A stretch of DNA of 64,000 nt, taken from the NCBI GenBank assembly GCA_033816765.1, contig CM066287.1, forward strand, positions 3,968,001 through 4,032,000, in the 5' to 3' direction. Source of the DNA: Nothopassalora personata. Taxonomy: Eukaryota > Ascomycota > Dothideomycetes > Mycosphaerellales > Mycosphaerellaceae. The position numbers were made by a program, and so were the translations under genes. Under the pieces are notes generated by a model. That model saw only the letters and a program-made list of their open reading frames with translations. It ran no database searches and had not been told where the DNA came from. This document shows, one piece after another, positions 1 through 62,504 of this stretch. Numbering within the stretch: the first letter of the stretch is position 1; each line of letters starts with the position of its first letter.

Positions 1-1045
1 GAACACCCGCCCCTAGTAAAGCAAGTAGAGCCCGACGACCTTAGACCGCGAACGATGCTATTAATGCCTTAGCTACTTATATAGGTAACGACACCCTTAA
101 GGTTAGTAAGCTAGAATACTACTATAGCGACCGAGACAAGTTCGACACTTAGGTCTCTTAGATAGATATGTACTTCTTATTTAACTCTATGCCTAAGAAC
201 CTTAAGCCTGTCTTTACTACTACCTTCTTAAGAGGACGAGCATAGCATTAGGTTAAACTATTCCTTAGGAAATACCTAGACAGTAACGGAGAAGACAATG
301 CCGACGGAATCTTTAGGTTATATAACTATCTTAAGCATGCTATAAAGAGCGTCTTTAGTATCTCTAATAAGATCGCTACTACCGTTCGTGTCATTTAGCA
401 TTTAACCTAGAAGACATCTACTGCCGAATATGCTACTAAATTCTAGGAATACGCGTAACTTACCGATTAGGACGATAAAGCACTTTAAGTTATGTACCGA
501 AGAGGACTAAAGGAGCATGTTAAGGACGAGTTAATAAGGGACGGTCGGAAGATCGATAGCTTAGGCGACCTCGTTAGAGTTACGATCGATCTTAACGATA
601 AGCTCTACGAGAGAGCTATAGAACGACGATACGACTCTAAGGTATCCGGAAAAGCTAGATATACACTAGGCTACGACAACCGTAATAGAGGCTTCTACGA
701 CAACTATAACAATAAGCCTAGGGATAAACTATACTACGGACTATAGCTAATAGAGCTCGACGTTACCGAGAAAGGTCGCAAGATTAGAAATAGTAACGGG
801 AATAGAGCATCCCGGAGTTCGAAAGAAACACGAACTTGCTACGGATATAGTAAACCTAGCCACCTAGTAAGGGACTGTCGCGGTAAGAATATAGTACGCC
901 GCGAACAGTTTAACATAATGCAACCCCGAACTAGTAAATCTAAGAGTAGCGTTAGATCTCGAGGAGATACCGACTATACTCGGAGAGTAGGGGAGAGAGC
1001 TAGTAATAGAAGCACGACGCCTCTCCTAGACCCCTTAGAAGGATA
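1..1045 (+). pseudogene. gag of element A, RIP-inactivated
   Basis: A capsid-like (retrotransposon gag) reading frame is broken by many TAG/TAA codons. The longest surviving piece (492-746) aligns with the capsid C-terminal region of the intact gag of element H (60371-61363), for example GLK.(H/N)VK.EL and the RRYDSK/LRYDRH stretch. A zinc knuckle remains at about 834-880, where C-x2-Y-x4-H-x4-C shows the second cysteine changed to Tyr as expected from TGC to TAC/TAT. There is no functional product. Confidence 0.8.
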
Positions 1046-2029
1046 AGGAGGATACTATAGGCAGCAAATAGTAGTTATTTCATTTAATACGAAGAACCAA
1101 CTACGACAGTTTAACATAATAGCACGAAGAGTCGACTACGAGATCGAATCCGAATCTCGAAATAGTTATAGAAGCCTTCATTAGCGATTCTATTACTAAG
1201 ACTCGTGTTAAGTTTACTACGCCGCGAAGTTAGGCGTAGGGTATTAGCCTTAGTAACTAAGAGGAACCCTAGGAGCGACGTATAGGTAAAACGCCACGCT
1301 CCGAGAAGTAGATATCGACGAATCCTGCTTTAACGATAATAGAAGCGATAAGGAAAACCAAGACCTAGGATAGAACGGATCGTAGTTACCGGAACCATAG
1401 GAAGAAAGTTAAGAAACTACCGGGCTAGATACTATCGAGGAAGACTAGGATCCGGAAGAATTAAGCGAAGAAGATTCCTCCGAAGGAGAAGAGAGCGATA
1501 CTAACGACGATAACAAACAACTAATCTTTACGATTAATACACCTAAGAAATTATACGATATAATCGTACACCTATAAAGAAGGCACGAAGAATTCCTACC
1601 TAAGATAGGCGGACGAAGAATGCTACACTCTATTGAGTTTAATAAGACACTCGACACCCTACGAGACATAGCCTAGGGATACCTACTTATGGAAACAACC
1701 GAGAATCTAGCAACCGCTATTATAGAACGACTACCGATAGGAAGCCGAATAACAGGTACCGGATACCTTACACCGTTAGGAACATTTATATTAAATGAAT
1801 TGCGAAACATAGTACAGTACGTACGCGCACTCTACTTAGGAACGTAGAAGATCTAGGAACGTTACTAAATATAGATGTAGACATAGAAAGGCTCGCGCTA
1901 GGTTTAAGCGGAGGCCTCGAGATACGAAGCACAACGTTCTATATACGAATAGGGAAAAGGATTAACTCCCTAGGAATAAGCGACCGAAGGGAGTTATACA
2001 ACATAGAGAAGGCTTAAGCATTACTAACG

Positions 2030-4876
2030 ATAATAGTGTTTCGAACTAAGATTATCGTTAACGGGCATAAGATAGATGCTATAATAGATTCCGGAGCGAG
2101 CTGGAACTTTACCTCCGAATCATTTGTTATAAGACATAGGATCGCTACCTATAAGAAGAAAGAGGGTTATAAATTAATCGCGGTAGACGGATTATCCTTA
2201 CCTAGTATAGAGCGCGAGACGATACCGCTACCACTTACTATCTAACGGCACTACGAGGAGATTATCTTAGATGTTACTAATATAGCTAGTTATAACATCG
2301 TACTAGGTATGCCTTAGTTAAGAAAGCATAATCTAGTAATCGACTAGAGAAGAGGAGTACTTACATTTAGGGAATGCGATTGCGTTATCGACATTTAGCC
2401 TACGTAGCGGTAGCGTTCGCTAGTAGATAAGGTAAAGAGACAGCTAAATAGGATATAGCTTACGCCGACTAGAAGGATAGAAGAACTACCTTCGACCGGG
2501 ATAGACACTAGCGTAGGGCCGCCGGGTTACGAAGTTACTAGTAGTAATAGAAGTAACGCACTATCGAAGGATACTAACATCTTAGAGTTAAGTATTCCTA
2601 AGGAGTATCGTAAGTAGTCGCGACTCTTTAAAGAGGAAAGAGGTAAGGATGCCTTACCTAAGCACTAACTATAGGATTATAAGATAAACATTTAGCTAGG
2701 GAAAGAGCCTCTATAGGGACCCCTATATTAAATGTCTAAGAAAGAGCTATAGACCCTACGAGAATAGCTAAAGGAGAAGCTAGCTAAAGGATAGATAAGA
2801 AGATCTACCTTAAGTGTAGGAACTCCATACATGTTCGTTCTAAAAGTAAACGGGAAGTTACGACTCGTACAAGACTATAGGAAGTTAAACGAGATTACAA
2901 TTAAGAACCAATACCCGCTACCTAATATCGAAGAAGCATAAGACAGATTAACCGGATCGGACTAGTACACGAAGATTAACCTACGAGATGCCTTCTATGC
3001 TATACGAATGGTAGAAGGAGAAGAATGGAAAACCGCCTTTAGAATAAGATACGGACTTTACGAATTCTTAGTTATGCTAATGGGATTAACTAACGTACCC
3101 GCATCCTACTAGGACCTTGTTAACGAAACACTTAGAGACCTACTCGACGTATACGTTATCGCTTACATAGACGACATACTAGTCTATACGAAAGGATCCC
3201 TACAGGAGTACATAAAACAAGTCTAGGACGTATTCGAACGACTTACGCGTTTAGGATTCAAGACAGCACCCGAGAAATGCGAATTCTATAAGAAAGAAGT
3301 TAAATTCTTAGGCTTTATTATTAGTACTATAGGGATAACGATCGACCCTACGAAGACACAGTTAATTAGAGAATAGCTAGAACCGAAAACAGTTAAGGAC
3401 GTACAATTATTCCTTAGACTAGCGAACTACAACCGGAAATTCATTAAGGACTACGTAAAGATAGTAGCACTAATAACGATGCTTACGAGAAAAGACGTTA
3501 CCTAGAAATAGGGAAAGGAACAGATTAAAGCGTTTAAGAAACTTAAGGAACAATGCGCTTTAGCCCCTACGCTTCGACTATTCGATAGTAGTAAGGAAGT
3601 CTACATCGAGACCGATGCGTCTAATATAGCAATAGGCGCGTGTCTAACATAGACACACGATAGGTAGAGACACCTAGTAGCCTATTACTCCCGGAAAATG
3701 ACTATAGCGGAATAGAACTACGACATCTATAATAAAGAGCTTCTAGCCATTGTTGCTACTATGTAACATTAGAGAGTATATATCGAGGGCCTACCGAAGT
3801 TAACGATTCTTTCTAACTATAAGAATCTTACGTACTTCACGACGACGAAAGAACTTACCCGAAGGCAAGCCCGCTAGTCGGAGCTGCTAGGGCAGTACAA
3901 GTTCGAAATTAAGTATACTCTAGGAAGAGAGAATAGCCGCGTAGACGCGCTAAGCCGAAGAAGCGACTACATAGAAGGAAAAGAACTAGTGTAACATAAG
4001 ATACTTAAAACGAACCCCGACGGAAGTCTTAGTGCTAACACGAGAGAATTTAATAACATCGTACGGATATTAGGCGACAAGGACGAGTAATTCCCTATAT
4101 CGTAAGGAAAATACCAAGTACCGAAGGATCGAGAAGAAGAGTGTATACGGCAACATTACGACGGACTAACTTACGGACACCCTAGAACTAAGCTATTTAC
4201 ATCGAACTACTAGGAAACGCTTATAGGAACGATTAGAATAAGACATAAGCTATTAATAGTATATTATCCGGAAATAGACGGATAAACGGAGAGGATAAAT
4301 TAAACACTCGAGTAATACCTACGACACTACATTAACTACGTATAAGACAACTAGGTTTTATTACTACTAATAGCGCAGATTGCACTAAATAACTATAAAT
4401 TGGAGACAACTTTAACGACACTATTCTATACGAACTTTAGTAAAGATCCTAACCTATTTAGAACACCTAGGTCTTACCTATAAGCCAAAAGAGCAATCGT
4501 AACGACGAATACTCTTAAGGAAGTGCATAAAGAAACACGTAAGGCGATCGAAGATGTATAATAAAAACTATCTTAATAACGGTAGGACATAAGAAAAATA
4601 GCACCTCTACTAAAAGAGGGGGATAAGGTCTATCTCCTTATAAAAAACTTAAGAATAAGAAGATAGACTAAGAAACTAGATTACGTTAAGGTCGGACTAT
4701 TTTTCATCGATAAAGTTATAGGACTAGTTAATTACCGCCTACGACTACTACTAGACGTAAAAATCCACCTAGTCTTCTACATCTCTAAGTTAGAACCCGT
4801 AGACGCCGAAACACCCTACTAGGAGAGCTTCTATTTCGAACTAGAAGTAGAAAACGAATTTAAAGTCGAAAAAATC
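2030..4876 (+). pseudogene. pol (PR-RT-RH-IN) of element A, RIP-inactivated
   Basis: The protease fragment at about 2036-2245 keeps the retropepsin signature IIDSGASWNF. Reverse transcriptase spans about 2812-3330 with YIDDILVY, the catalytic Asp pair, near 3160-3185. RNase H follows (about 3580-3980: IETDASNIAIGACL, then YTLGREN...VDALSRR). The integrase is interrupted: the part corresponding to B 9546-9929, which holds the start of the catalytic core, is missing at 4189/4190. Numerous in-frame TAG/TAA codons remain, so this is a dead copy. Confidence 0.85.
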
Positions 4877-5296
4877 TATTACCGGTTAGATTAGGCTGAT
4901 GCTTAGTAACTAATTAGAGCCTCTACAGTTGAGTGAGCGCCACTATAGCTAGAAGGGCACAGCCACCGTAGAGTAATCTGTTGCTCTACGAGACCTACAA
5001 GACAGATTAATAGATTAGATTAGAGCACGACAGCAATTGATCTATTGCTCTATATAATCTGTAAAACAGATTAACAGATCGAAGTAGATTAATAATGATT
5101 TCCTTTGTATTTAGGAACGCTAGAAACCCTTATGGTTCTAATGCGTTCAACTTATGTTACTATCTCACTAATTGGAATACAACTCTTATTCCTATTATTC
5201 ATCTTCGCTTAGCTTACTTCAGCCTCTCTAAAGAATACCGCTACGTGACTTAACTTATCTCTCCTTTAAGGCTAGCCCTAGAACGAGATAATAACA
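4877..5296 (+). repeat. 5' LTR of element B (420 bp)
   Basis: The start is TATTACCGG, a RIP variant of the TGTTACGGG that opens the 3' LTR, and the end is TAACA. A TATA-like TATTTAG lies at 5108-5114. The octamer GCGTTCAA at 5143-5150, about 35 nt further on, is complementary to the bases just after the LTR (5299-5306). Confidence 0.92.
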
Positions 5297-5306
5297 CTTT
5301 GAACGC
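5297..5306 (+). promoter_or_regulatory. candidate primer-binding site of B, complementary to its own LTR
   Basis: The first bases after the 5' LTR are CTTTGAACGC. TTGAACGC (5299-5306) is the exact reverse complement of GCGTTCAA at 5143-5150, near the expected transcript start. No TGG-starting tRNA-type primer site is evident. This fits self-priming as known for Tf1/sushi-type elements, but it is an inference. Confidence 0.5.
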
Positions 5307-5339
5307 CCTTAGGATAAGCGCTACTTAAGCAGCAAGTAG

Positions 5340-6430
5340 GGGAACACCCGCCCCTAGCGAAGTAGGAAGCATCCGCCGTGCGCTACTATAACAGACCACC
5401 ACGAAGGACGATGAGTCTAATGACGATAACGAGCCTACTCTAAGAAAGAATGACGTTAAGGCCGCTAAGCTAGACCTCTTCTATAGAGACAGGGCCAAGT
5501 TCGACGACTGGATCAATTAGATAGATATGTACCTTATGTTTAACCTAGTCGATGCCGATAAAAGAACTATCTTCGCTATTACGTACCTTCGCGGAAGTGC
5601 GCAGAACTAGATTAAACCTTACCTTAAGGAATACCTTAAAGGTATAGGACGATTAGACCCTACTAGAATGTTTAGGAGCTATACCCTTTTTAAAGAAAAG
5701 ATGAAGTTAATCTTTAGAACCTCGAACGAAGTCTAACAGGCTATACGAATCATTTAACACCTAAAGCAAAAGACGTCTACTTTAGAGTATGCCGCCAAAT
5801 TCGAAGAATACGGACAAATTACCGGATGGGACTAGACGGCGTTAATAACTATGTTCCGACGTGGACTTAAAGACTCCGTTAAGGACGAGTTAATGAGATA
5901 CGGGGGACGGATTACTAACCTCGAAGAGCTAATAAAGGCGTTGATTAACATCGATAACTAGCTCTAGGAACGACACTAGGAGAAGAAATACGACTCTAAA
6001 GTAGGAGGAATAGTAGGATACGCTCCGGACCATAGACCCTTAGGAGGATACGTTACGAAGGGAGAATTCTCACGACAAAGCTAGCCCTACTATAGACCAT
6101 AGCTAATGGAACTAGACGTTACCTAACGAGGACGGAGGATCGACAAGAGTAGGGGCTACGGAAAGAAGCCCTTTAAAGGAAAAGGAAAACTCACATACTA
6201 TACCTATAGTAAGGAAGGTTGCATAGCGCGGGATTGCCGCGGTAAAAATATAGTGCGCCGCGAGCAATTCAATATAATGCAACCCCGAACTAGTAAATCC
6301 GAGAGTAGCGTTAGATCTCGAGGAGATACCGACTATACTTAGAGAGTAGGGGAGAGAGCTAATAATAGAAGCACGACGCCTCTCCTAGACCCCTTAGAAG
6401 GACAAGGAGGATACTATAGGCAGCAAATGG
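5340..6430 (+). pseudogene. gag of element B, RIP-inactivated
   Basis: The reading frame is homologous to the gag of A and H. It has many TAG/TAA codons and a degraded zinc knuckle near 6195-6240 (Y-x2-Y-x4-G/C-x4-C followed by RGK). The region after the knuckle (from about 6245) is almost the same as A from about 895. No function remains. Confidence 0.75.
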
Positions 6431-7389
6431 TAGTCATTCCATTTAGTGCGAAGAACTAACTACGACAGTTTAACATAATAATACGAAGAGTCGACTACGA
6501 GATCGAATTAGAGTCTCGAAATGGTTATAGAAGCCTTCATTAGCGATTCTGTTACTAAGACTCGTATTAAGTCCACTACGCCGCGAAGTTAGGCGTAGGG
6601 TATTAGCCTTAGTAACCACGAGGAACCCTAGGAGCGATGTATAGGCAAAACGCCACGCTCCGAGAAGTAGACATCGACGAATCCTACTTTAACGAAGATA
6701 GAAGCGATAAAGAAAATCAGGACCTAGGATAGAACGGATTATAGTTACTAGAACCATAGGAAGAAAGTTAAGGAACCACCGGGCTAAATACCATTAAGGA
6801 AGAACAGGATCCGGAAGAATTAAGCGAAGAAGATTCCTCCGAAGGAGAAGAGAGCGACACTAACGACGATAACGAACAACTTACCTTCACGGTAGATGCA
6901 CCTAAGAAACTGTACGACATAATTATCTACCTATAAAGAAGGCACGAGGAATTCCTACCTAAGATAGGTAGACGAAGAAGGCTACATTCTATTAAGTTTA
7001 ACAAGACACTCGACACCCTACGAGGCATAGCCTAGGGATACCCACTTATGGAAACGACCGAGAATCTAGCAACCGCCGTTATAGAACGACTACCGATAGG
7101 AAGCCGAATAATAGGAACCGGATATCTTATACTGATAGGAACATTCATATCGAATGAATTACGTAACATAGTACAGCATATACGGGCTCTCTACTTAGAA
7201 ACGTAGAAGATCTAGGAACGCAATAGACTATAAGTGTAGACATAGGGTAACGGGCTATAGGTTCTAGCTGAAGCCTCTAGGTACGAAGTATAGCGAACCA
7301 CATACCATTCGGGAAAAGGATTAGCTCCCTAGGAATAAGCGACTAAAGGGAGTTATGCAATACTTAGGCTCATGTATCGACATTAAACA

Positions 7390-10300
7390 CAGTTTTCTAG
7401 ACACAAGTAATCGTTAACGGACACAAGACTAGTGTTATGATCGACTTAGGAGTAGCGGGGAATTTTATCTCCGAGTCTTTCGTAAGAAGAAACGGGTTCG
7501 CTACCCTAAAGAAGAAATGGGGTTACGAGTTAATCGCGGTAAACGGATTATCGTTACCTAGCGTAGAATGGGAGACGACACCATTGCTACTAGCTATCTA
7601 ATAGCACTACGAGAATATTACCTTAGATGTTACTAATATAGCTAGTTATAACATAGTATTAGGTATGCCTTAGTTAAGAAAGCACAATCCAGTAATCGAC
7701 TAGAGAAGAGGAGTACTTACATTTAGGGAATACAATTGCGTTATCGACATTTAGCCTACGTAGTGGTAGCGTTTACTAGTAGATAAGGCAAGGAAACAGC
7801 TAAACGAGATATAGCTTACGCCGCATAGAAGGATAGAAGAACCACCTTCGACCGGGATAGACACTAGCGTAGGGCCGCCGGGTTACGAAGTTACTAGTAG
7901 TAATAGAAGTAACGCACTATCGAAGGATACTAACATCTTAGAGTTAAGTATTCCTAAGGAGTATCGTAAGTAGTCGCGACTCTTTAAAGAGGAAAGAGGT
8001 AAGGATGCCTTACCTAAGCACTAACTATAGGATTATAAGATAAACATTTAGCTAGGGAAAGAGCCTCTATAGGGACCCCTATATTAAATGTCTAAGAAAG
8101 AGCTATAGACCCTACGAGAATAGCTAAAGGAGAAGCTAGCTAAAGGATAGATAAGAAGATCTACCTTAAGTGTAGGAACTCCATACATGTTCGTTCTAAA
8201 AGTAAACGGGAAGTTACGACTCGTACAAGACTATAGGAAGTTAAACGAGATTACAATTAAGAACCAATACCCGCTACCTAATATCGAAGAAGCATAAGAC
8301 AGATTAACCGGATCGGACTAGTACACGAAGATTAACCTACGAGATGCCTTCTATGCTATACGAATGGTAGAAGGAGAAGAATGGAAAACCGCCTTTAGAA
8401 TAAGATACGGACTTTACGAATTCTTAGTTATGCTAATGGGATTAACTAACGTACCCGCATCCTACTAGGACCTTGTTAACGAAACACTTAGAGACCTACT
8501 CGACGTATACGTTATCGCTTACATAGACGACATACTAGTCTATACGAAAGGATCCCTACAGGAGTACATAAAACAAGTCTAGGACGTCTTCGAACGACTT
8601 ACGCAATTAGGATTCAAGACGGCACCCGAGAAATGCGAATTCTATAAGAAAGAAGTTAAATTCTTAGGCTTCATTATTAGTACTATAGGGATAACGATCG
8701 ACCCTGCGAAGACATAGTTAATTAGAGAATAGCTAGAACCGAAAACAGTTAAGGACGTAGAATTATTCCTTAGACTAGCAAACTACAACCGGAAATTCAT
8801 TAAGGACTACGTAAAGATAGCAGCACTAATAACGATGCTTACGAGAAAAGACGTTACTTAGAAATGGGGAAAGGAACAGATTGAAGCGTTTAAGAAACTT
8901 AAGGAACAATGCGCTTTAGCCCCTACGCTTTGACTATTCGATAGTAGTAAGGAAGTCTACATCGAGACCGATGCGTCTAATATAGCAATAGGCGCGTGTC
9001 TAACATAGACACACGACGGGTAGAGACACCTAGTAGCCTATTACTCCCGGAAAATGACTATAGCGGAACAGAACTACGACATCTATGATAAAGAGCTTCT
9101 AGCTATTGTTGCTACTATGCAACATTAGAGAGTATATGTCGAGGGCCTACCGAAGTTAACGATTCTTTCTAACTATAAGAATCTTACGTACTTTACGACG
9201 ATAAAAGAACTTACCCGAAGGTAAGCCCGCTAGTTAGAGCTACTAGGACAGTATAAGTTCGAAATTAAATATACTCTAGGACGAGAGAATGGCCGCGCCG
9301 ACGCGCTGAGCCAAAGAAGCGACTACATAGAAGAAAAAGAACTAGTGCAACATAAGATATTAAAGACGAACCCCGATAGAAGTCTTAGTACTAACACGAG
9401 AGAATTTAATAACATCGTACGGATATTAGGCGATAGGGACGAACAATTCCCTATATCGCAAGGAAAATACTAAGTACCGAAGGATCGAGAAGAAGAATGC
9501 ATACGACAACATTACGACGGACTAACTTATAGACACCCCGGAACTTCGAAAACAATGGACCTAATATAACGCAGTTTCTCATTCCTATAGATGAGACTTA
9601 AGGTGTTACGCTACATTAAACAATACGTACACTGCTAACGAAACAAGGCTACGAGACATACAAAATACGGTTACCTACAGTTTAGGACGCTACCGATAAA
9701 ACCATAGGACGAAGTTATAATGGACTTTATTACGAAACTCCCACCGTTAAAGGATTAAGTTACGAAATAACTATACGACATGATACTAGTTATGGTTAAT
9801 AGACTCACGAAATACGCACACTTCATTCCTACATCGGAAACGTACAATGTAGAGTAGCTCGGATACCTCGTACTAGATAGACTTATCCGATACTACGGAT
9901 TCCCCTAAGCGTTTATAACGGACAGAGACAAGCTATTTACATCAAACTACTAGAAGACGCTTATAGGAATAATCGGAATTAAACATAAGCTATTAATAGC
10001 ATATTATCCGGAAATAGACGGATAGACCGAAAGGATAAATTAAACGCTAGAACAATACCTACGACACTACATCAATTATGCATAAGACAACTAGGTTTCA
10101 TTACTGCCAATAGCGTAGATTGCACTAAATAACTACAAATTAGAGACAACTTTAACGACACTATTTTATACGAACTTTAGTAAAGATCCTAACCTATTTA
10201 GAACACCTAGATCTTACCTACAAGCCGAAAGAGCGATCGTAACGACGGACACTCTTAAGGAAGTACATAAAGAAACACGTAAGGCGATCAAAGATACATA

Positions 10301-10745
10301 ACAAAAACTGTCTTAATAACGGTAGGACACGAGAAAAATGGCACCTCTACTAAAAGAGGGGGATAAGGTCTATCTCCTTACAAAAAACTTAAGAACAAGA
10401 AGATAGACTAAGAAACTAGATTACGTTAAGGTCGGACTATTTTCTATCGACAAAGTTATAGGACTAGTTAACTACCGTCTACGACTACTACCTAACGCAA
10501 AAATCTACCTAGTCTTCTATATCTCTAAGTTAGAACCCGTAGACGCCGAAACACCCTACTAGGAAAGCTTCCATTTCGAACCGGAAGTAGAAAACGAATT
10601 CGAAGTTGAAAGAATCCTAGATAAGAAAGGTTAGCAATACCTTATTAAATGGAAAGGATACGACGAATTAGAAAATATCTAGGAACTAGAAAGAAACCTT
10701 AAGAACTGCCGGCTACTTCTAATAGAGTATTTCTAGCGCCGGAAG
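7390..10745 (+). pseudogene. pol of element B with chromodomain, RIP-inactivated
   Basis: Protease is at about 7400-7610; its DSGA-type catalytic motif now reads DLGV, consistent with TCA to TTA and GCA to GTA changes. RT (about 8180-8690) keeps YIDDILVY near 8518-8544. RNase H is at about 8930-9340. Integrase (about 9480-10260) shows MDFITKLPP, ITDRD and TER(I)N.TLEQYLR, which cover the D, D, E catalytic region. The C-terminal chromodomain (about 10600-10740) reads QYLIKWKGYDELEN.(W). TAG/TAA codons interrupt every domain. Confidence 0.88.
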
Positions 10746-10818
10746 AACCTCGAAGAGAAGGAGGACTATACAACCAGAAATCGGAGGAGACATTATAACC
10801 TTAGTCGACAAGAAGATT

Positions 10819-11259
10819 CTAAGTGTTAGGAGCTAGGTGGAAGTCCGCTAACCCCTCCTACTCTAGCTCTAACAGGTCCACCGACTCTACGGCAATAGCC
10901 TCGTTAGCTCTCTAATCCACGAGCTCTATCTACCTACGTAACCGTTCTTCCTTCGCATACGTAGTATTTAGGGCCTCGCGGGCACGCTCTTAAGCCTCGC
11001 GGGCTTCCTTTATCTACCGCTGCAGTTTCTTCTTTTCACTAATAAGGCGATCGAACTCGGAACGCGATACCTTTACATTATAACGGATGTTTCGACGAAT
11101 ACACTTATTGCACCGCCCCGATAATACATGCACCTTGCACACCCGCGAATGCGCCCGACAGTTAGAACAGGACCGTACCATTATTTCTCTAAAGTTGTCG
11201 ATAGTTTCCGCTAACTTAAGACGACGAGAGGTACTCGAGGAAGAAGGAGCCTTTAGCAT
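10819..11259 (-). pseudogene. antisense Cys6-cluster / coiled-coil ORF in element B
   Basis: On the strand opposite to pol, between the chromodomain and the 3' LTR, an ATG at 11259 opens a frame of 147 codons ending at 10819, with several TAG/TAA codons in its second half. The first 81 residues are open and contain C-x2-C-x6-C-x8-C-x2-C-x6-Y. That is the Zn2Cys6 binuclear-cluster spacing with the last Cys turned to Tyr, as RIP would do. A charged, helix-prone part follows (EKKKLQR...IKEAREA...AREALN). It is homologous in position and layout to the intact ORF at 61476-62093. The function is unknown; DNA or nucleic-acid binding is only suggested by the Cys spacing. Confidence 0.65.
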
Positions 11260-11355: not shown

Positions 11356-11775
11356 TGTTACGGGTTAGATTAGGCTAATGCTTAGCAACTAATTAGAGCC
11401 TCCATAGTTGAGTAAGCGCTACTATAGCTAGAAGGATATAGCTACCGTAGAGTAATCTATTGCTCTACGAGACCTATAAGATAGATTAATAGATTAGATT
11501 AGAGCACGATAGCAATTGATCTGTTGCTCTGTATAATCTATAAAACAGATTAATAGATCGAAGTAGATTAATAATGATTTCCTTTGTATTTAGGAACGCT
11601 AGAAACCCTTATAGTTCTAATACGTTCAACTTATGTTACTATCTCACTAATTGGAATATAACTCTTATTCCTATCATTCATCTTCGCTTAGCTTGCTTTA
11701 GCCTCTCTAAAGAATACCGCTACGTAACTTAACTTATCTCTCCTTTAAGACTAGCCCTAGAACGAGACAATAACA
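11356..11775 (+). repeat. 3' LTR of element B (420 bp)
   Basis: It begins TGTTACGGGTTAG, ends ACAATAACA, and is followed by the duplicated target AAATC. It is the same length as the 5' LTR. The differences that I see between the two are mostly C/T and G/A transitions, as expected for RIP. Confidence 0.92.
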
Positions 11776-11947
11776 AAATCCTAGATAAGAAAGGTTAGTA
11801 ATACCTTATTAAGTAGAAGGGATACGACGAATTAGAAAATACCTAGGAACCAAAATAAAACCTATAAAACTGTTAGTAAAAGATCCGACAATACTAAAAT
11901 AGGTCCGCCGATATAACTAACGATAATCGATCTATCGGCCGACGAGC

Positions 11948-12020
11948 GACTAGGGTAGGAATCGAACCTACGACCTTAAGAGTATAGATAGCTTACGCTC
12001 TACTACTAAGCTACCTAGCC
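11948..12020 (-). tRNA. tRNA-like pseudogene (isotype uncertain)
   Basis: On the minus strand 73 nt fold into most of a tRNA. The acceptor halves GGCTAGG and CCTAGTC pair over 7 bp with one G-U. The T arm GTAGG-TTCGATT-CCTAC is perfect. The D arm reads GCTTAGTAGTAGAGC, which is the usual GCTCAGTGG form with two RIP-type changes. The anticodon arm does not close properly: 25 nt lie between the D and T arms instead of about 23, and only TAAG/CTTA can pair, leaving an 11-nt loop. I therefore treat it as a decayed tRNA or tRNA-derived sequence inside element A. Confidence 0.5.
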
Positions 12021-12116
12021 GATTAATAAGAATAGGGACACAACTTATAAATAAATACCCTAATAAGTCTCTACCCCTAGGGACTCGCCCTAAGGCTCCG
12101 CTCTAGAAAGCGCCGC

Positions 12117-12599
12117 CTAGTCGTTTACGGGCATCTCTAGGATATCCGAGAAAGAAACTAGCGAAGGCGACACCTCTACCCCCGACGCCCGCTTAAGAGA
12201 CGCTAGCTCCTCGCGCGCCTCTTCCTCCTCGAGCTCCTCTAACTCCTTAGCGACGGTATCGTCGGTACGACGCTTAGCTAATCGTAGCTGTTTATGAAGA
12301 CGGATCTTACGTATCTTTAGCCGCACCTCCTCCTCTTTAATCCTCTTAAGCTCTAGCTTAAGATTATCGCGCGAATCGCGAAGACGTTCCTACTCCGGAC
12401 GAGAAAGACGTATATCGCAATCCTTATAGCCTTTTCGAATATAGACCGAACACTTTCTAGACCGAGAACCTACGATATACTTTACTACTGCGCCCGAGGA
12501 TCGAGACTTCTAATAATTCGTGCATAGAGCTATTTTAATACTAGAAAATTTAGTATCCTAAGCAAGTCGTTAACGGCGTTTATAGGAGGAAGAAGACAT
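12117..12599 (-). pseudogene. antisense Cys6-cluster / coiled-coil ORF in element A
   Basis: The ATG at 12599 opens a 161-codon frame on the opposite strand with four TAG/TAA codons in its first half; the last 69 residues are open. The cysteine pattern is C-x2-Y-x11-Y-x8-C-x2-Y-x7-C, where each Tyr stands at a Cys position of the H homologue. The stretch KQLRLA(K/E)RRTDD is nearly identical to the H protein, as is the C-terminal ILEMP motif. It lies just before the hairpin and polypurine tract, exactly as in B and H. The protein family is unnamed here; the role is unknown. Confidence 0.7.
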
Positions 12600-43143: not shown

Positions 43144-43507
43144 GCATAGTAGCGGTGTGGCTGAATCTCGCCGTGGCCTGTTTCCTCTGACGCTGCAATG
43201 GGGGGGCAAGAGCTGCATCTCTGCACAGTAATTAAAAGAAAAAACCGGAATCGTGGCCTCGTTGGCTTCCCAACAGCGCAACCCACTACGGGCAGCAGTC
43301 GCGTCATGGCGCAATAGCCGCGCGAAGAGGCGCTCCACTGGTGCTGCTCCCACAGACCCGTCGTCAGGCCTCGAACTCGCCCTCCTCCCACGACCCGCGC
43401 GTGCAGCAAAATCCCACGGCCCTCGTGACCGGCTGCTAGACTTGGAGCCTGCCTCACAGGACGCACTCCGGCGCAGGCGCAAGCTCTGCGACCTCGTCGA
43501 GCGCGAC
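43144..43507 (+). promoter_or_regulatory. upstream region of the phosphate transporter gene
   Basis: Only 364 bp separate the right TA of the transposon from the transporter's ATG, so the promoter lies partly or wholly here or has been displaced. An in-frame open stretch upstream (43253-43507) lacks a convincing start: the first in-frame codon there is not ATG, and SPX proteins begin at the later Met. No further motif is claimed. Confidence 0.45.
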
Positions 43508-46201
43508 ATGAAGTTCTCACACAGCATCCAGTTCAACGCCGTGCCGGACTGGTCGTCCAATTACATATCCTACTCGAACCTCAAGAAGCTCATCTACCAG
43601 CTCGAGAAACAGATTAACCAGCAGAATGGGAAGCCCGCCTCGAGCGGCCAGGACCCTGAAGCCTCTCCGCTCCTGGTAACGAGCTCTGTCGACGATCCGG
43701 ACAAGATCTTCTCCCGGAAACTAGATGACGAACTGGAGAAGATCTGCAGTTTCTACCAGCTCAAGGAACTCGAGATCTTTGGGGAGGTGGATGCTCTGCT
43801 GCGGGAGGTTGAAGAGTTCCAGGCCGAGCACGGCGAAGATGACGAGGACGGTGCACGACGGCAGAGTGTCTGGGCGAGGGCCAGGCAGCAGAGCATATTC
43901 CGCACTTTCATCCAGCAGAAGAGGAGGAAGAGCTCTGCAACCGGCAGTGGTAGTCGAAGGCCCAATCTAGGGGAAGAAGACGAGAGCGAAGATGAGGACA
44001 ACGAGCACACCGCACTCACCAAGAGTCACTCAACACTGGACCGCAGGCCTACCGGTCGCGGCAAAGACTCCGCAACAGGCGATCGAACAGACGGCTTCGA
44101 CCTCAATGCAGGCTATCGCCGCCGTCCTAGCACCGCGTTCAATGATTTCGGCGACGATGCGCTGCAAGCACTTTATGATGAAGGCATCACTCTGAAAAAG
44201 CGCATAACAAACCTCTATGTTAGCATTTGCGAGCTACGATCTTTCATCCAGCTCAACGAGACTGGCTTCAGCAAAGTTCTCAAGAAGTACGACAAAATCC
44301 TGGACCGGAATCTGAAACGTCCATATATCGATGCGAATGTGAAGCCGGCGCATCCATTCCAGCCAAGTACAATTGAGCGTCTGGCAGAATATCTCCTGAA
44401 AGTGGAGGAAGCATACGCGAGCATTGTCACCAAGGGCGATGTAGATGCTGCCCGACAAGAACTTCGATTGCATTTACGCGAGCATGTGGTCTGGGAGCGG
44501 AATACTGTCTGGCGAGAAATGATTGGCATTGAACGCAAGGCTCAGGCGGCGAACCTAGGCATCAGAAATACCATGCTTGGTCAAGACACTGACCCCAAGA
44601 AAGCACGACTTCAAGGCGACCAAGAGGACGGTGCTCTTAAGGAGGTTCGTCTGCCGATTGGCAAGTACAGATGCCCGAAGTTCTTGGTCAGCGGAACCTT
44701 CTGGGTCTTGGTTGCGGTAGTTGCCACATTTGCTGTGCTGCTTGCAGTTCCGATCATGGAAAGGCCAGAGCAGCAGAATTGCCTAGCTTTGGTCATTTTT
44801 GTCAGTCTCTTGTGGGCAACAGAGGTATACATGTCATGGCAAAAGTGCAAGATAGTTGAGTCAATGCTAACGAATGAACAGGCGATACCCTTGTTCGTTA
44901 CCTCACTTCTGGTGCCCTTCCTCTGCGTTGTGCTTCAAGTCGTGCGCGAAGATAACAAGCCTAATCGTCGCCTTTCCAGTAAAGAAGCCGCTGGCTATGT
45001 CTTTGCCTCCATGTGGACACCCGTCATCATGCTACTTCTCGGCGGCTTCACGATTGCCGCTGCCTTGAGCAAGTACAATATTGCAAAGATGATGGCAACT
45101 TTTGTGCTTTCCAAGGCCGGGACGAGACCAAGGACCGTGTTACTCACGAGCATGGGCGTAGCGACCTTTGCCAGCATGTGGATCAGCAACGTGGCCGCAC
45201 CGGTGTTGTGCTTCAGCATCATCCAGCCGATTCTGCGTAATCTTCCATCTGACAGCGACATGTCCAAGGCCTTATTGCTCGGCATAGCGTTGGCATCGAA
45301 CATTGGTGGAGCTGCTTCGCCAATTGCATCGCCGCAGAACCTTATTGCCTTGGAGAATATGGAACCTCAGCCTGGGTGGGGAACCTGGTTCTTCATTGCG
45401 CTGCCGGTGTGCATTATCAGCATACTCTTGATATGGGTAATGCTACTAGTGACCTTTAGACCTGGCCGTAACACCACGATTGTGCCCATTAGGCCTATGA
45501 AGGACAAGTTCACCGGCGTTCAATGGTTCATATCGATAGTGACGCTCGTCACAATTTTGCTATGGTGTGTCAGTCACGAGTTGGAAGGCATCTTTGGGGA
45601 CATGGGAGTTGTCGCTATCATTCCGATAGTCCTTTTCTTTGGTACGGGAATTTTGACCAAAGAAGATTTCAACAACTTCCTATGGACGATCATTATCCTT
45701 GCAGCTGGTGGACTAGCATTGGGTAAAGCTGTCAACAGCTCCGGACTCCTGAGGACTATTGCGATTGCTATCACGAATGAGGTCTCGAGCCTTTCGTTGT
45801 ATGGCGTCACCTGCGCTTTCGCCGCGTTGATCGCAGTCGTGGCCACGTTCATCAGTCATACTGTGGCTGCGCTCATCATCTTGCCGCTGGTTCGTGAAGT
45901 GGGAGCCGGCATGGCTGAGCCCCACCCAAATCTTCTTGTCATGGCTTCAGTGCTGATGGCATCGGCTGCAATGGGCTTGCCAACTAGCGGGTTCCCAAAC
46001 ATGAGTAAGTCTCGTTAGATAGAATCAGATAGTGCTCATGCTAATTTTGTGGCAGCTGCTATCATGATGGAGGATCCGCAGACTGGCCAGAGATATCTGC
46101 AAGTCCGACATTTCTTGACGAGGGGTGTACCGGCCAGCATCATGGCGTATGGGGTCATCATAAGCGTTGGGTACGGATTGATGGTCGCGGTCGGGTTCTA
46201 G
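43508..46201 (+). CDS. PHO87: SPX-domain low-affinity phosphate transporter (Pho87/Pho90/Pho91 family)
   Basis: Takes up or moves inorganic phosphate; in yeast Pho87/Pho90 act at the plasma membrane and Pho91 at the vacuole, and which role applies here cannot be told. Exons are 43508-46004 and 46056-46201 (51-bp intron), 880 aa. The start is the Met of MKFSHSIQFNAVPDW, the canonical SPX N-terminus. The SPX domain covers about residues 1-330, with SYSNLKKLIYQLEKQ and FCQ/ELRSFIQLNETGFSKVLKKYDK-type helices and an acidic insert between. From about residue 390 to the end there are roughly a dozen membrane segments of the divalent-anion/Na+ symporter (SLC13-like) fold, including ASNIGGAASPIASPQNL. 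Without the intron the frame would stop shortly after FPNM. Confidence 0.93.
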
Positions 46202-48661: not shown

Positions 48662-51405
48662 ATGAGCTCCCGTACGCAGCACAGGCCTCGTCTCCCCTTT
48701 GCCAGTCACTGCATCTGCTGACATTACCCGTCACACGCAGTCAAGCAGTTCATCCGCAATGTGCGCGCCGCCAAAACCATCGCCGACGAACGAGCCGTCG
48801 TACAAAAGGAGAGTGCCGCAATAAGAGCGAGCTTTAGGGAGGAGTCGCACAACTCCGACTTGCGGTAGGAGCCCATATGGACACATATGGACAGCTACAC
48901 GCTGTACCAGAGGCTCACGTACTCACACTCGACTCCGTAGACGCAACAATGTCGCCAAACTCCTCTACCTCTTCACGCTGGGCGAGCGAACCCACTTTGG
49001 CCAGATCGAATGCCTCAAGCTGCTGGCGTCTCCCCGTTTCGCCGACAAGAGACTCGGCTACTTGGGCACAATGCTGCTGCTGGACGAGAACCAGGAGGTG
49101 TTGACGCTGGTCACCAACTCGCTGAAGAACGACCTGAACCACAGCAACCAATACATCGTCGGACTCGCGCTTTGCACCCTGGGCAACATCGCTTCCATCG
49201 AAATGTCCCGTGATCTCTTCCCCGAAGTCGAAACCATCCTCTCCTCGTCGAATCCATACATCAGACGGAAGGCAGCATTGTGTGCGATGCGCATTTGCAG
49301 AAAGGTGCCGGACCTGCAGGAGCACTTCCACGACAAGGCCAAGCTTCTCCTCAACGATCGCAACCATGGCGTCCTTCTCAGTGGACTCACGTTGGTGGTC
49401 AGCATGTGCGAAGCCGACGAGGAAGAGGGCGGTGAACAGGGAGTCGTGGAGATGTTCAGACCGCTGACACCTGGCTTGGTCAAGGTGCTGAAGGCACTCT
49501 CACAATCCGGATATGCGCCCGAGCACGATGTCACGGGAATCACCGATCCTTTCTTACAAGTCAAGATATTGCGCTTATTACGAGTGCTGGGTAGGGGAGA
49601 CCCTCAGACGAGCGAGCAGATCAACGATATATTGGCTCAGGTAGCCACCAACACCGAGGCATCCAAGAACGTGGGCAACTCCATTCTCTACGAAGCCGTA
49701 TTGACAATCCTGGACATTGAAGCCGACTCCGGCCTGAGGGTGCTTGGTGTCAACATTCTTGGAAAGTTCTTGACCAATCGGGACAACAACATCCGTTACG
49801 TGGCTCTTAACACCCTTCTCAAAGTCGTTGCTATTGAGCCCAATGCTGTGCAGCGACATCGAAACACCATCTTGGACTGCTTGCGAGATCCGGATATCAG
49901 CATACGGAGGCGAGCACTAGACTTGAGCTTTACCCTGATCAACGAGTCGAACATCCGAGTACTCATCCGGGAACTGCTTGCTTTCCTGGAAGTGGCTGAC
50001 AATGAATTCAAGCCCGTCATGACTTCTCAGATTGGTATTGCTGCAGACCGCTTCGCGCCTAACAAACGGTGGCATGTGGACACTATGCTTCGCGTGCTGA
50101 AACTCGCGGGCAACTATGTGAAGGAGCAAATATTGTCTTCTTTTGTCCGTTTGATTGCAACCACACCTGAGCTGCAGACGTACTGCGCGCAAAAGCTTTA
50201 CGCGGCTCTGAGAGAAGATATCAGCCAAGAAGGTCTGAATCTCGCTGGAGCTTGGGTCATCGGCGAATACGGTGACGCACTCCTCAGAGGCGGCTCTTAT
50301 GAAGAGGAAGAACTCGTGCGCGAAGTCAAAGAGAACGAAATTGTGGATTTGTTCACCACCATCCTCAATTCCAGCTACTCTGGCACCAGCGTGACCGAGT
50401 ATATCATCACTGCAGCGATAAAGCTGACAACGCGCTTACAAGACCCGGCCCAGGTCGATCGCCTCAGACGATTGTTGATCAGCAGACAAGCAGATCTGAA
50501 CGTTGAAGTTCAGCAGCGCTCTGTCGAATACGGCAACCTCTTCGGCTATGACCAAGTACGCAGAGGTGTTCTGGAGCGGATGCCACCTCCAGAGATACGG
50601 GAAGAACAAAGAGTCCTCGGCGAGGCGACTAAGAAGCGTCACAGCAAGCTACCTGCGAAGAAGAAGCCAAGCCAGATTACAGAGCAGGATATGCTGCTTG
50701 ACCTAATGGGAGGAGACTCGGGTCTTCCAACAGGCGGTGCAGGTGCAACAATGAATGGCTCACAGGCCAACAACGCTGATCTGCTCGCTGACATTCTTGG
50801 CGGTGGTGGCGCTGTCTCCTCGCCAGTGCAACAGAGCGCATCTTCGCTTAATGGATCAGTGCGACCTCAAAGCAACATGGACTCGATCATGGATCTCTTT
50901 GGTTCTCAGCCGTCAGGACCACCGGCATCGTCAACACAGCCTGCGCAATCTGCTGCTTCGAATGCCATTCTAGGTGGATTTGGAGGCGCAATAGCACCGT
51001 CCCAACAGCAAGCGCACACCGCATACAACAAGAACGGCCTCTTCGTCGCCTTCAATGTCCAGCGTAGCACACAAGCTGTGCAGGTCACGGCTCGATTCCA
51101 GAATACTAGCAACTTTGAATCGATCAGCTCTCTCAACTTGCAAGCGGCAGTGCCAAAGACACAAAAACTACAGCTGCAGGCTATCAGCTCATCCGAGCTT
51201 CAAGGAGGACAGGAGGCCACACAACAAATGCGGATCACGGGGGTCCAAGGAGTAAGTCGCTCGCAAGAATTTGCGCATGATGTCAGGATGTTAACCACAA
51301 TCACAGGCGCCTCCAGCAAAGCTACGATTACGTTTGAAGATCACATACGCCAAAGACGGCGGTGCCCCGACTACAGAACAAGTGGATTGGAGCGAGCCCA
51401 CATAG
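48662..51405 (+). CDS. APL4: AP-1 adaptor complex gamma subunit (gamma-adaptin)
   Basis: Large subunit of the clathrin adaptor AP-1, which sorts cargo at the trans-Golgi and endosomes. Exons are 48662-48671, 48741-48864, 48941-51251 and 51307-51405, with introns of 69, 76 and 55 bp; they join to 847 aa in one frame. The tiny first exon gives MSS plus one base, and the joined N-terminus reads MSSLKQFIRNVRAAKTIADE. The adaptin N-terminal solenoid (residues about 1-600) contains RNNVAKLLYLFTLGERTHFGQ-type helices and GLALCTLGNIAS. The hinge (about 610-735) is Ser/Gly/Gln-rich with acidic dileucine-like DLL and MDLF motifs that may bind clathrin. The gamma-ear is at the end (GLFVAFNVQRS, then KLRLRLKITYAK, ending VDWSEPT). 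Without the last intron the ear would be lost. Confidence 0.95.
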
Positions 51406-51722
51406 ATGATGGCGGAGAGTATGGAACTGTGCTGAGCGTTCAATGTGCTGCATGCGAGCATCCTGATAGCGGTCAGTGTAGGACTGAATCATATGGCCGA
51501 AACGTGTCCCAACGCATGTTCGAGCAAGCCGTCTTTGATACCTTGAAGCATCCCGTAAGGTACCGCGTCTTCCAGTTTCTTCACGTTAGCGCGGAGACAG
51601 GTGTCTTGTTGGACACCTTCTCTCGTCTCCTGGTGGCAGCATCCATCTGGAGACTGTGCCGCAGTCTATACTTCATCCATGCCATGACTCGATTCTTCAT
51701 GCCTTTTCCTGCAATCAATTGC

Positions 51723-52532
51723 TCAAGTTCTACCGCTACCCTTCCCTGCCCACTTTGCGGGCGCTTCCTTGACTACCTCCCCATCCTGCAACAGCACTCC
51801 CTCCCCAGTCCTGTCCTCAACCAGCTTGAAGTACTCCAACGGCAAAATCCCATCGGCATTTCCTTCACTGAGAATAACTCCGTTATCGCTGAGCCAGAAC
51901 TTAATCCCGGCCTCCATCGCTTTCGAGATATCAAGGAACATGAGCACCGTCGAAGATTTCCGCATTCCAGAGATCACAGGCGCTGCTGCTGCTGCTGCTG
52001 CATCGTCCGCCGTCTTGTCCTTTTCCACAATCGACGTGAACCCTGCCGGTAGTCCTGAGGCGAAGTGAACATGATTCCGAGTCATCGGTCTGAGACCTCC
52101 CGTCGCGACGATTTGAGGCCATGCGGCGTGGGTCGTGCCGTGGATTGCTGCGTCGGGTAGATTCTCCGCGGTGACGGGCTTGAGTAATCCTTCGCTGTCG
52201 ACTTTAAGGCTGTGGCCTTGGTTCGCTCTGATCAAGTAATCTTTGGGATCATTCGATGTGCAGTCGGTTGGGCCGGTGGGGTCTGCATTGCTGTGTAGCG
52301 AGGAGGCCGGGACCATTGTGAAGCGTTGTTTGTCGTTGTCGTGGACGATGGCGCGGAGCTCGGCAAAGGTGACTTTGAGGGATTTGATATTGCGGTTGGT
52401 GAGGACGTCGGAGACGTTGATGAAGCCTCCGGGGCTGAGGTGGAGGCCTTCTTTTTCGGCGCCGTGGCGGAGGAGCCAGGCGATCTTTTTGGAGACTTGG
52501 ACGTCTCGTGGGAGGGGACCGCGGCCGGGCAT
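51723..52532 (-). CDS. TPT1: tRNA 2'-phosphotransferase
   Basis: Removes the 2'-phosphate left at the splice junction of ligated tRNAs, passing it to NAD+ and giving ADP-ribose 1'',2''-cyclic phosphate. 269 aa, no intron. The Tpt1/KptA landmarks are all present: KKIAWLLRHGAEKEGL near residue 15-30, LIRANQGHSLKV around 100-110, AAIHGTTHAAW around 133, and a later Arg-x-HVHFASG block. These supply the conserved Arg-His-Arg-Arg active site. An Ala run of eight (GCT/GCN repeats, about 51975-52000) is a local oddity. It ends 318 bp from the convergent gamma-adaptin gene. Confidence 0.93.
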   Translation of the reverse strand: MPGRGPLPRDVQVSKKIAWLLRHGAEKEGLHLSPGGFINVSDVLTNRNIKSLKVTFAELRAIVHDNDKQRFTMVPASSLHSNADPTGPTDCTSNDPKDYLIRANQGHSLKVDSEGLLKPVTAENLPDAAIHGTTHAAWPQIVATGGLRPMTRNHVHFASGLPAGFTSIVEKDKTADDAAAAAAAPVISGMRKSSTVLMFLDISKAMEAGIKFWLSDNGVILSEGNADGILPLEYFKLVEDRTGEGVLLQDGEVVKEAPAKWAGKGSGRT

Positions 52533-59904: not shown

Positions 59905-60009
59905 TATACTATCTCTTTATACGCTAACCTTTTATTTCTTAAAAATCGGCATTCGTTATGTTGTTTCTATCGTTATGTTGTTTCTTTAAAAAGGGTCGAT
60001 GTATCGTAA

Positions 60010-60338
60010 TGTTACGGTTTGATTCGTGGAGAACCCACAACCACTCGTTAGGCAAACGAGAGCAAGGAAACCTATGGGACGAGATCGCTCTCTGAGCTCT
60101 AGGGTGATCTCTGAGGGAGCAGAGAGAGCAGGACAGATCAACTGATCGGACTGATCAAGTCGCGCCAAGACATGGCACTATATAGACGACGCTCTTTTGC
60201 AAGTAGATAGGAGCTTCGTGCTCAACTCATTTTAAGTATACACCATATACTGTTTGGAACCACTACCTTCATAACTGATTGAGACATCCCTGCAAAGATC
60301 CAAGCCCGAGTTGTGATAACGTACAGCGGTTCCTAACA
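60010..60338 (+). repeat. 5' LTR of H
   Basis: TGTTACGG to CCTAACA. TATATA at 60179-60184 is followed 39 nt later by GTGCTCAA (60218-60225), which is complementary to 60342-60349 just past the LTR. Confidence 0.95.
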
Positions 60339-60350
60339 ACTTTGAGCACC
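60339..60350 (+). promoter_or_regulatory. candidate self-complementary primer-binding site of H
   Basis: ACTTTGAGCACC directly follows the LTR. TTGAGCAC is the reverse complement of GTGCTCAA inside the LTR. The equivalent site of B is TTGAACGC, matched by GCGTTCAA in B's LTR. Confidence 0.5.
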
Positions 60351-60370
60351 ACCACCAGGGCCCTTTGCAT

Positions 60371-61363
60371 ATGTCTGGGAGAGACGCTACCCGGAGTCCG
60401 TCACGACAACAGCCACAGTCAACTGGCATCACGGAACGAATGAGCGAAATGTCGATTACAGGAAGCAGCAAGAACAACAACACTCCTATGGGTATGCTGA
60501 ACCCATTGGACCACCACCGTGCACCTAAGGTGTCTACGCCGGAGACGTTCGACGGGACCAAGGACAAACTGGAGGCTTTTCAACTGCAGGTTCAGTTGTA
60601 CCTTCACTTCAACGCACACCAGTTTCAAGGCGAGGCCTCTAAGGTCTTGTACGCCGCATCCTTCCTACGAGGAAAAGCAGCTAGAGGATTCCGACCATAC
60701 CTCAAGGACTGGCTACACAACCAGGGCGAGGGAGAAACACCGAAGACGGAAACTCGAAAAATTTTCCACGACTACGACGAGTTTGAGACGAAACTCGATG
60801 ATCTATACGGGATACCAAATGAGGAGGTATACGCCGACCGACATATCCGACAACTTCGACAGACTACTTCTGTAGCGCTGTACGCCTCAGAATTCCAAGG
60901 ATATGCCGCCGACCTGGAATGGAACGACGCAGCTTTGCGATCGCAGTTCTACCTCGGGCTGAAAGACAACGTCAAAGCCGAACTATCCCGAAACGCCAGC
61001 GTCGTTACGCTAGGGGCGATGATCAAGGCAGCAAAGGAGATCGACGAAAGGCTCCAGGAGTTGAGGTACGACCGACACGTACAGCCTGGATACCAGAGAC
61101 CCGCCGCGGGCGGAAGAGGGGGCTTCAAGGCCAGAAGTCAGGACCCTAATGGTTACGGAGACCCAATGGAATTGGACGTAACGGAACGTAGGACAGGAAG
61201 GGGGCTGAAGAGCAAAGGTTCCACCTGCTACGTATGTGGCGAGCAAGGCCATTATGCAAGGAACTGCAAGAAAAAGAACATAGTTAGCCGCGAGTTCAAC
61301 GCAATGATTCGCGAAGAGAATGCATACCAGGAATGCGAGAGCTTTCTCTCGAAATCTGCCTAG
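60371..61363 (+). CDS. retrotransposon Gag protein of H
   Basis: 330 aa, intact, from the ATG for MSGRDATRSP. It forms the particle that packages the element's RNA. A disordered N-terminus is followed by a capsid-like helical domain (residues about 55-235; YLHFNAHQFQGEASKVLYAA, then EEVYADRHIRQLRQTTS and FYLGLKDNVKAELSRNAS), a basic Gly/Arg linker, and one zinc knuckle CYVCGEQGHYARNC near residue 295. It is homologous to the broken gag frames of A (1-1045) and B. The stop at 61363 ends it with no pol frame after, unlike autonomous relatives. Confidence 0.9.
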   Translation: MSGRDATRSPSRQQPQSTGITERMSEMSITGSSKNNNTPMGMLNPLDHHRAPKVSTPETFDGTKDKLEAFQLQVQLYLHFNAHQFQGEASKVLYAASFLRGKAARGFRPYLKDWLHNQGEGETPKTETRKIFHDYDEFETKLDDLYGIPNEEVYADRHIRQLRQTTSVALYASEFQGYAADLEWNDAALRSQFYLGLKDNVKAELSRNASVVTLGAMIKAAKEIDERLQELRYDRHVQPGYQRPAAGGRGGFKARSQDPNGYGDPMELDVTERRTGRGLKSKGSTCYVCGEQGHYARNCKKKNIVSREFNAMIREENAYQECESFLSKSA

Positions 61364-61475
61364 CAGAAACAACCTGAGGACAGCAAGGCATCAAACAGCG
61401 GCTTCTTGATTTGATGACCTAAGGAAAAGAAGTCAACACAACGACACGGAACAAATGACTACTGGGTAACACGAC

Positions 61476-62093
61476 TTACGAAGATTGAGATGCCAAGACG
61501 GGAGGAAAGAGAAAATCCAAGGGATCGTCCAGCGGGACGTCCGACAGAGAACTCCAGTCTTGAGGAGGCATCTCGAGAATGCCATGGAAAGGGAAAGGAG
61601 GTTCAGGGACCTCTACACCGGACGGAACAGAGAAGGGGAGATCGACAGGAGGGTCGTCCAGCTCGAGTTCGTCGAGGGCCTTCCCGGTCGCATCATCGGT
61701 ACGACGCTCAGCAAGACGAAGCTGTTTCCGTACACGAACTTTCTTCATGCGCTTCTCAGTAAGACGCTGGAGAAGCTCAATCTCCTCCTCTTCTAAGGAT
61801 TCCAAGTCGCGACGAAGCTGTTCCCGGACGGAGCGAAGTTTTTCCCATTGGGGGAAGGCCAGAGAAACGTCGCAAGTCTTGCGGTTGTGTCTAACGCACT
61901 CGGAGCACTTCGAGGACCTCGGACCAACGATGCAGGCAGGACGACTGCCATCAGCCAAAGGTTTCAGGGAACGACAATAGGAGCAGGGAGCCATTTCGTA
62001 ACCGTTCTCTTCAATATCTTCGACAAGGCGCTTGCGACGAAGGGTTGATTTTGCTTGAGAAGGACCAATGGTGATAGATGAAAGAGAAGTCAT
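61476..62093 (-). CDS. antisense ORF of H: Cys6-cluster and coiled-coil protein
   Basis: 205 aa, intact, on the strand opposite to gag. Residues about 37-77 contain C-x2-C-x13-C-x8-C-x2-C-x7-C, similar to a Zn2Cys6 cluster with a longer first loop. Residues about 80-140 are a charged heptad-like helix (LRSVREQLRRDLESLEEEE, then KVRVRKQLRLAERRTDD). The rest is acidic and Pro-rich. Broken homologues sit at the same place in A and B. In fungi Zn2Cys6 domains usually bind DNA as dimers through a following coiled coil, so a DNA- or RNA-binding accessory factor is possible, but this is inference. Its start lies 77 nt from the 3' LTR, so that LTR may act as its promoter in reverse. Confidence 0.75.
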   Translation of the reverse strand: MTSLSSITIGPSQAKSTLRRKRLVEDIEENGYEMAPCSYCRSLKPLADGSRPACIVGPRSSKCSECVRHNRKTCDVSLAFPQWEKLRSVREQLRRDLESLEEEEIELLQRLTEKRMKKVRVRKQLRLAERRTDDATGKALDELELDDPPVDLPFSVPSGVEVPEPPFPFHGILEMPPQDWSSLSDVPLDDPLDFLFPPVLASQSS

Positions 62094-62135
62094 CGTTGCA
62101 TGACAGGATTGACGAAGAAAACGCCGGACCCTATA

Positions 62136-62170
62136 AGCTTCGGGACGAAGCTAGGCTAGAAGGGGGATGG
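62136..62170 (+). promoter_or_regulatory. hairpin plus polypurine tract before the 3' LTR of H
   Basis: AGCTTCG-GGA-CGAAGCT at 62136-62152, then 18 nt containing AGAAGGGGGATGG, then the LTR at 62171. The polypurine tract would prime plus-strand DNA synthesis. The hairpin has no known role. Confidence 0.75.
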
Positions 62171-62499
62171 TGTTACGGTTTGATTCGTGGAGAACCCACA
62201 ACCACTCGTTAGGCAAACGAGAGCAAGGAAACCTATGGGACGAGATCGCTCTCTGAGCTCTAGGGTGATCTCTGAGGGAGCAGAGAGAGCAGGACAGATC
62301 AACTGATCGGACTGATCAAGTCGCGCCAAGACATGGCACTATATAGACGACGCTCTTTTGCAAGTAGATAGGAGCTTCGTGCTCAACTCATTTTAAGTAT
62401 ACACCATATACTGTTTGGAACCACTACCTTCATAACTGATTGAGACATCCCTGCAAAGATCCAAGCCCGAGTTGTGATAACGTACAGCGGTTCCTAACA
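62171..62499 (+). repeat. 3' LTR of H
   Basis: Identical to the 5' LTR over all 329 bp as read. Followed by the target repeat CGTAA. Confidence 0.95.
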
Positions 62500-62504
62500 C
62501 GTAA

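Follow-up and report, generated by a model that had tools for sequence, protein, structure and literature searches.

An antisense gene for a putative Zn2Cys6-like protein and U3 motif arrays on shared LTR retroelement backbones in Nothopassalora personata

Genes lying antisense beside the 3' long terminal repeat (LTR) of retroelements have been reported in plants and fungi, and reviews, as far as their accessible text goes, call their function unknown. They include brtn, carried in antisense by the Boty-like elements of Botrytis cinerea (Zhao et al., 2011, as cited in the accessible parts of PMC7264820, PMC8365987 and PMC4227169), and the TRP28 open reading frames of the plant Retand elements, which are located between pol and the 3' LTR, are predicted to bind DNA and have tandem repeats nearby (PMC11963269, accessible part). 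Here, a gene at the same place is described in element H, a gag-only LTR element in a window of 64,000 nt from the fungus Nothopassalora personata (contig CM066287.1, positions 3,968,001 to 4,032,000, the whole stretch of DNA analyzed; coordinates are those of the window). Its antisense open reading frame (aORF), which encodes a putative Zn2Cys6-like protein, is coding and under purifying selection as a protein, and related elements carry diverged aORFs and arrays of short motifs in the U3 part of the LTR. Antisense genes at this place are already known from brtn and Retand; what is new is the occurrence of an antisense Zn2Cys6-like gene together with U3 arrays on shared backbones, a linkage which was not found in the literature searched, mostly papers available without subscription.

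Compared by description, the gene resembles brtn in lying next to the 3' LTR, in antisense, within fungal elements of the Ty3/gypsy kind (gag, CCHC, protease, reverse transcriptase, integrase and chromodomain). It differs in that neither a Zn2Cys6 reading nor a linked U3 array is described for brtn in the accessible sources and in that gag-only elements also carry the antisense gene here. Retand shares the position of the reading frame, the predicted DNA binding, the nearby repeats and the presence of some non-autonomous elements, but is set apart by the TRP28 domain and by its non-chromovirus plant lineage.

Element H is young and spans 2.49 kb (60010–62499), with its parts in the order 5' LTR, gag, antisense aORF, polypurine tract and 3' LTR. 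The 5' LTR (60010–60338, + strand) and the 3' LTR (62171–62499, +) are 329 bp each and match letter for letter, and the flanking sequence reads as a 5-bp target-site duplication (CGTAA; left copy 60005–60009, right copy 62500–62504). The gag gene (60371–61363, +; 330 aa) encodes a Retrotrans_gag domain and a CCHC knuckle, with no pol after it. The aORF (61476–62093, − strand; 205 aa) encodes a six-cysteine cluster, a long helix and an acidic tail, and is followed in the + direction by the polypurine tract (62158–62170, +). Its start codon lies 77 bp from the 3' LTR, a distance of 72–103 bp in 17 of the 19 types that make up the aORF comparison set.

Conservation of the aORF goes beyond chance, since at least 150 scored matches are present in the genome (54.5 Mb, 40 contigs searched) and homologues occur in other assemblies (9 proteins, then 4 further, then 8 further), one of which (P0022) is an NCBI record named Elasticomyces elasticus. 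Among the matches listed, 14 are 100% identical, including the window's own, alongside several intact groups at 41–66% identity; many others are broken. For the gag of H, at least 121 scored copies are present, 97–100% identical. In 40 of the best 121, picked to span the score groups, the 3' side was read: all 40 have an open antisense frame that contains the six-Cys motif, and the frame is unbroken from the first Cys to the stop in 34. Among the pol-bearing elements, where 13 of 105 scored matches to the pol C-terminus were read, 12 keep the frame open across the motif and nine are unbroken from the first Cys to the stop, two of these (L062, L063) without an in-frame start codon. Elements found via the aORF itself were excluded from both counts. 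The gene falls into the aORF-3R class, in which most copies carry, ahead of the 3' LTR, a conserved reading frame on the strand opposite to gag-pol. No pol-bearing element with the gag of H was seen among the 40 gag copies read and the elements found via the aORF.

The dN/dS comparison set beforehand by the first-pass annotation, which had proposed a selected antisense product, speaks for that proposal: in the best pair, the natural intact copies L033 and L034, dN is 0.07 and dS 0.85 (ratio 0.08), and the differences at codon positions 1, 2 and 3 number 13, 16 and 72. For H and L031, pN/pS is 0.34 at a dS of 2.5, and most other pairs are saturated (pN/pS 0.40–0.72), so that the weight rests on L033/L034 and, less well, on H/L031, with H/L037 being weak (0.65). 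In a six-frame test of four pairs, the aORF frame was the only one free of stops and had the lowest pN/pS in every pair (0.14, 0.33, 0.65 and 0.48). The runner-up was one sense frame at 0.19, 0.45, 0.69 and 0.60, with 5–8 stops. Constraint on the sense strand, which the same annotation had named among the outcomes that could undo its claim, is thereby ruled out for these pairs. Long sense frames do stand open over the same DNA in some types, and one sense frame has a low ratio, yet a chance frame or the mirror of a conserved sense-strand gene is rejected for the tested pairs and is hardly credible overall. It is also very improbable that the antisense RNA rather than a protein matters, for instance through double-stranded RNA and silencing; an antisense location at the element's 3' end would suit such a role, which has been proposed for other antisense frames (PMC7264820, accessible part), but the codon-position pattern and dN/dS indicate selection on the protein and largely refute RNA as the sole function.

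Zn2Cys6 proteins follow the pattern C-x2-C-x6-C-x5-12-C-x2-C-x6-8-C. This spacing is found in 11 of the 19 aORF types, while x11 or x13 replaces x6 in H and seven others, the pattern of H being C-x2-C-x13-C-x8-C-x2-C-x7-C. The proteins have a coiled coil and a basic N-terminus, and in most types the tail is acidic, aromatic and devoid of basic residues. Gal4-type Zn2Cys6 factors are matched by the cysteine spacing of the eleven types, the helix after the cluster and the acidic tail, but not by the 13-residue loop of H, the Zn_clus scores and the location on a retroelement. Against the assignment to this class, the Pfam Zn_clus scores of L045 (10.4 bits) and L053 (10.1) fall below the curated cut-off of 21 bits, the 205-aa protein of H gave no Zn_clus match, and its predicted structure matched no Zn2Cys6 protein in two structure comparisons. 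A sequence search of the PDB with the aORF alignment returned, in its best 60 rows, mostly coiled coils and weak Sequestosome-1 rows, with no Zn2Cys6 factor. Of the roles suggested in the first-pass annotation, a packaging regulator found no support, whereas a transcriptional regulator is partly upheld: a Zn2Cys6-like regulator is favored on the cysteine spacing of the relatives, the predicted structure of a canonically spaced relative and the U3 motif arrays, with the Zn_clus scores and the model of H speaking against it. The same truncated aORF is present in three copies on two contigs (L044, L079, L089), which are deletion derivatives. Elements with a shortened gene thus still spread, which suggests that the tail is either dispensable or, as with a trans-acting factor, not required in cis.

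The elements form a mosaic in which the identity of the backbones between types (in gag, core promoter and R-U5) mostly exceeds 90% while the aORF and the upstream U3 differ. A comparison along the elements shows high identity in gag and mostly also in R-U5 and lower identity in the aORF and the upstream U3, the drop coming about 70–110 bp past the gag stop, near the end of the aORF. In six gag-only elements, the gags share 94.8–99.1% DNA identity as opposed to 49–65% for the aORFs, which for most is near the alignment background, with the exception of one pair at 81%; across all 171 type pairs, the median aORF protein identity is 30%. The core promoter of H (62336–62353, +), which contains TATATAG, is common to the gag-only types, and core-R-U5 is 91.8–100% identical to that of H in nine of the ten gag-only types compared (66% in L033). 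Likewise, the integrase ends of the pol-bearing L062, L065, L066 and their kin are 96–98% identical to L032, and five pol-bearing types are 93–100% identical in core-R-U5, with aORFs at 27–40% and upstream U3 parts at 39–50% identity. The sixth, L068, has a backbone of its own. A simple way in which the mosaic may have arisen is template switching during reverse transcription. Modular U3 evolution is described for the Tnt1 superfamily (PMC1838419, accessible part), where U3 similarly diverges while the coding parts stay alike; the accessible part of that source makes no mention of an antisense gene.

The U3 parts upstream of the core promoter carry short repeated motifs, among them tandem AGAGAGCA in L031, repeated CTGATCA in L032, L033 and L065, tandem GACGAGCA with 17 GAGCA sites in L092, GCGACG in L069, and CGACC repeats common to the gag-only L037 and the pol-bearing L062. 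Among 18 U3s, including two with the same LTR, self-repeats exceed dinucleotide shuffles (z > 3) in 13, compared to none of 15 control pieces; the exact 7-mer repeats of H's own U3 do not stand out (z 1.3). H does have eight GA(G/T)CA sites at 62221–62318, compared to 1.8 expected, and its 5' LTR holds the same array. An excess of GA(G/T/C)CA (at most 1 in 500 shuffles), a motif picked after inspection, is found in 12 of 19 U3s, H among them, and is absent from the control sequences taken from gag, pol and aORF.

Gene and array tend to go together, as a tendency rather than a rule. The U3 matched the copy's own aORF type in 19 of 20 copies, copies of one type not being independent, and the remaining copy is a new type. 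Across types (L036 left out because its LTR is that of L042), array and aORF similarity are correlated by Pearson's coefficient (0.26, p 0.003, for all pairs; 0.31, p 0.007, across backbones). Spearman's coefficient is not significant (0.04, p 0.20; across backbones 0.12, p 0.18), and neighboring sequences are co-inherited anyway. Against a tight linkage, H and L047 share 73% of the upstream U3 with aORFs 33% identical, L045 and L047 share 76% with aORFs 38% identical, and in L036 the LTR of L042 stands beside a different aORF, which lacks a Met upstream of its MAP. Exchange therefore also takes place inside or beside U3.

The unit that differs is a gene for a putative DNA-binding protein plus an array upstream of a shared core promoter. 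Self-regulation of U3 is the most economical explanation. The aORF product would be an element-borne, sequence-specific DNA-binding protein with a six-Cys zinc cluster, a dimerizing coiled coil and an acidic aromatic tail, most likely expressed from a leftward transcript that starts in the U3 of the 3' LTR. It would bind the short-motif array of that U3, which is also present in the 5' LTR ahead of the gag promoter, and thereby activate or de-silence transcription of its own family, and gene and array would tend to move jointly between near-identical gag-only or gag-pol backbones. The acidic tail favors activation or anti-silencing over repression. Such a self-regulator, Gal4-like or VANC-like, has in our estimate about an even chance of being correct. 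Exchangeable cassettes of a Zn2Cys6-like antisense gene and a U3 operator array on shared gag(-pol) backbones, with the 19 types as separate control groups, are possible but doubtful; in this reading, to be held just as tentatively, the types would be to retroelements what immunity regions are to phages, or a counterpart of VANC anti-silencing. Confidence in the control groups is lowered because types whose genes are distant have arrays partly in common. HBZ of human T-cell leukemia virus type 1 (HTLV-1) is a nuclear bZIP protein encoded on the antisense strand. Compared by description, the likeness lies in an antisense-encoded nuclear retroelement protein and the difference in the bZIP domain; HBZ is named in the accessible part of PMC11963269. 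A possible working model is provided by the VANC proteins of Arabidopsis VANDAL transposons, which bind short tandem motifs in their own element (PMC5735166, accessible part), with motifs that vary between related elements. VANDAL is a plant DNA transposon, and binding and anti-silencing have been demonstrated for VANC, whereas the arrays described here are known from sequence alone.

Two further explanations take the protein as real and differ in what it does. It is unlikely that it serves as a DNA-binding or structural accessory in nuclear entry or integration choice while host transcription factors are what the U3 arrays bind. The coiled coil and basic N-terminus would fit this role, as would the weak coupling of array and aORF, and possible host factor sites are present in the 18 distinct upstream U3 parts, with CACGTG in nine (0.8 expected) and CCAAT/ATTGG in 11 (4.2 expected); it leaves unexplained why the gene sits beside the arrays and why both diverge jointly between near-identical backbones. 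Quite unlikely, too, is a repressor of its own U3 class which limits copy number in trans, with types resembling phage immunity groups. A repressor would favor new specificities, and both the U3 arrays and the many diverged types on shared backbones are in line with it, but the tail, acidic, aromatic and in most types free of basic residues, appears more activation-like, and arrays are common to some types with distant aORFs.

The first-pass annotation had also placed related antisense frames with the same six-Cys pattern before the polypurine tract in two other elements, A and B. These frames are indeed found on the − strand, after pol pieces on the + strand, by tblastn with stops present (A, approximately 10705–11259; B, approximately 12096–12599), as copies of two other types broken by repeat-induced point mutation (RIP). 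A is of the x6-spacing type of L068 and B of the x11 type of L032, so the Zn2Cys6 spacing C-x2-C-x6-C-x8-C-x2-C-x6 which had been credited to B belongs to A. Element A (5266–11259) is inserted in the pol region of element B (3–4876 with 11775–12599), and both are RIP-damaged. The Cys-to-Tyr changes reported earlier hold up by eye against the intact relatives and have the pattern expected from RIP: the sixth motif Cys of L068 is Tyr in A, and Tyr stands at four Cys of L032 in B, three of them motif Cys.

Elsewhere in the genome, a broken relative of the H aORF (80% identity) recurs in 14 copies with the same four TAG and three TAA, located on small contigs and toward the beginning of C9 (C9, C20, C21, C30, C31, C33, C34, C39, C40), as if RIP damage had come first and duplication later. 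Gag-only elements also occur in tandem, with gag repeated six times at intervals of 2,056 bp (C12:1356314–1367589) and two element copies in L035, and at L034:6287–8789 a further LTR pair with 94% identity and a similar element size is situated close to the intact pair. Host genes in the window include an SPX/citrate-type transporter (43253–46018, +) and an adaptin subunit (49062–52052, +), the end of which is overlapped by a Tpt1/KptA phosphotransferase frame (51723–52532, −).

The genome thus amounts to a natural experiment in which near-identical backbones carry different antisense genes together with matching or mismatching U3 arrays. This mosaic turns the function of the antisense genes into a direct question of binding and reporter activity. 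If the proposed self-regulation is true, LTR retroelements would carry their own exchangeable gene switches.
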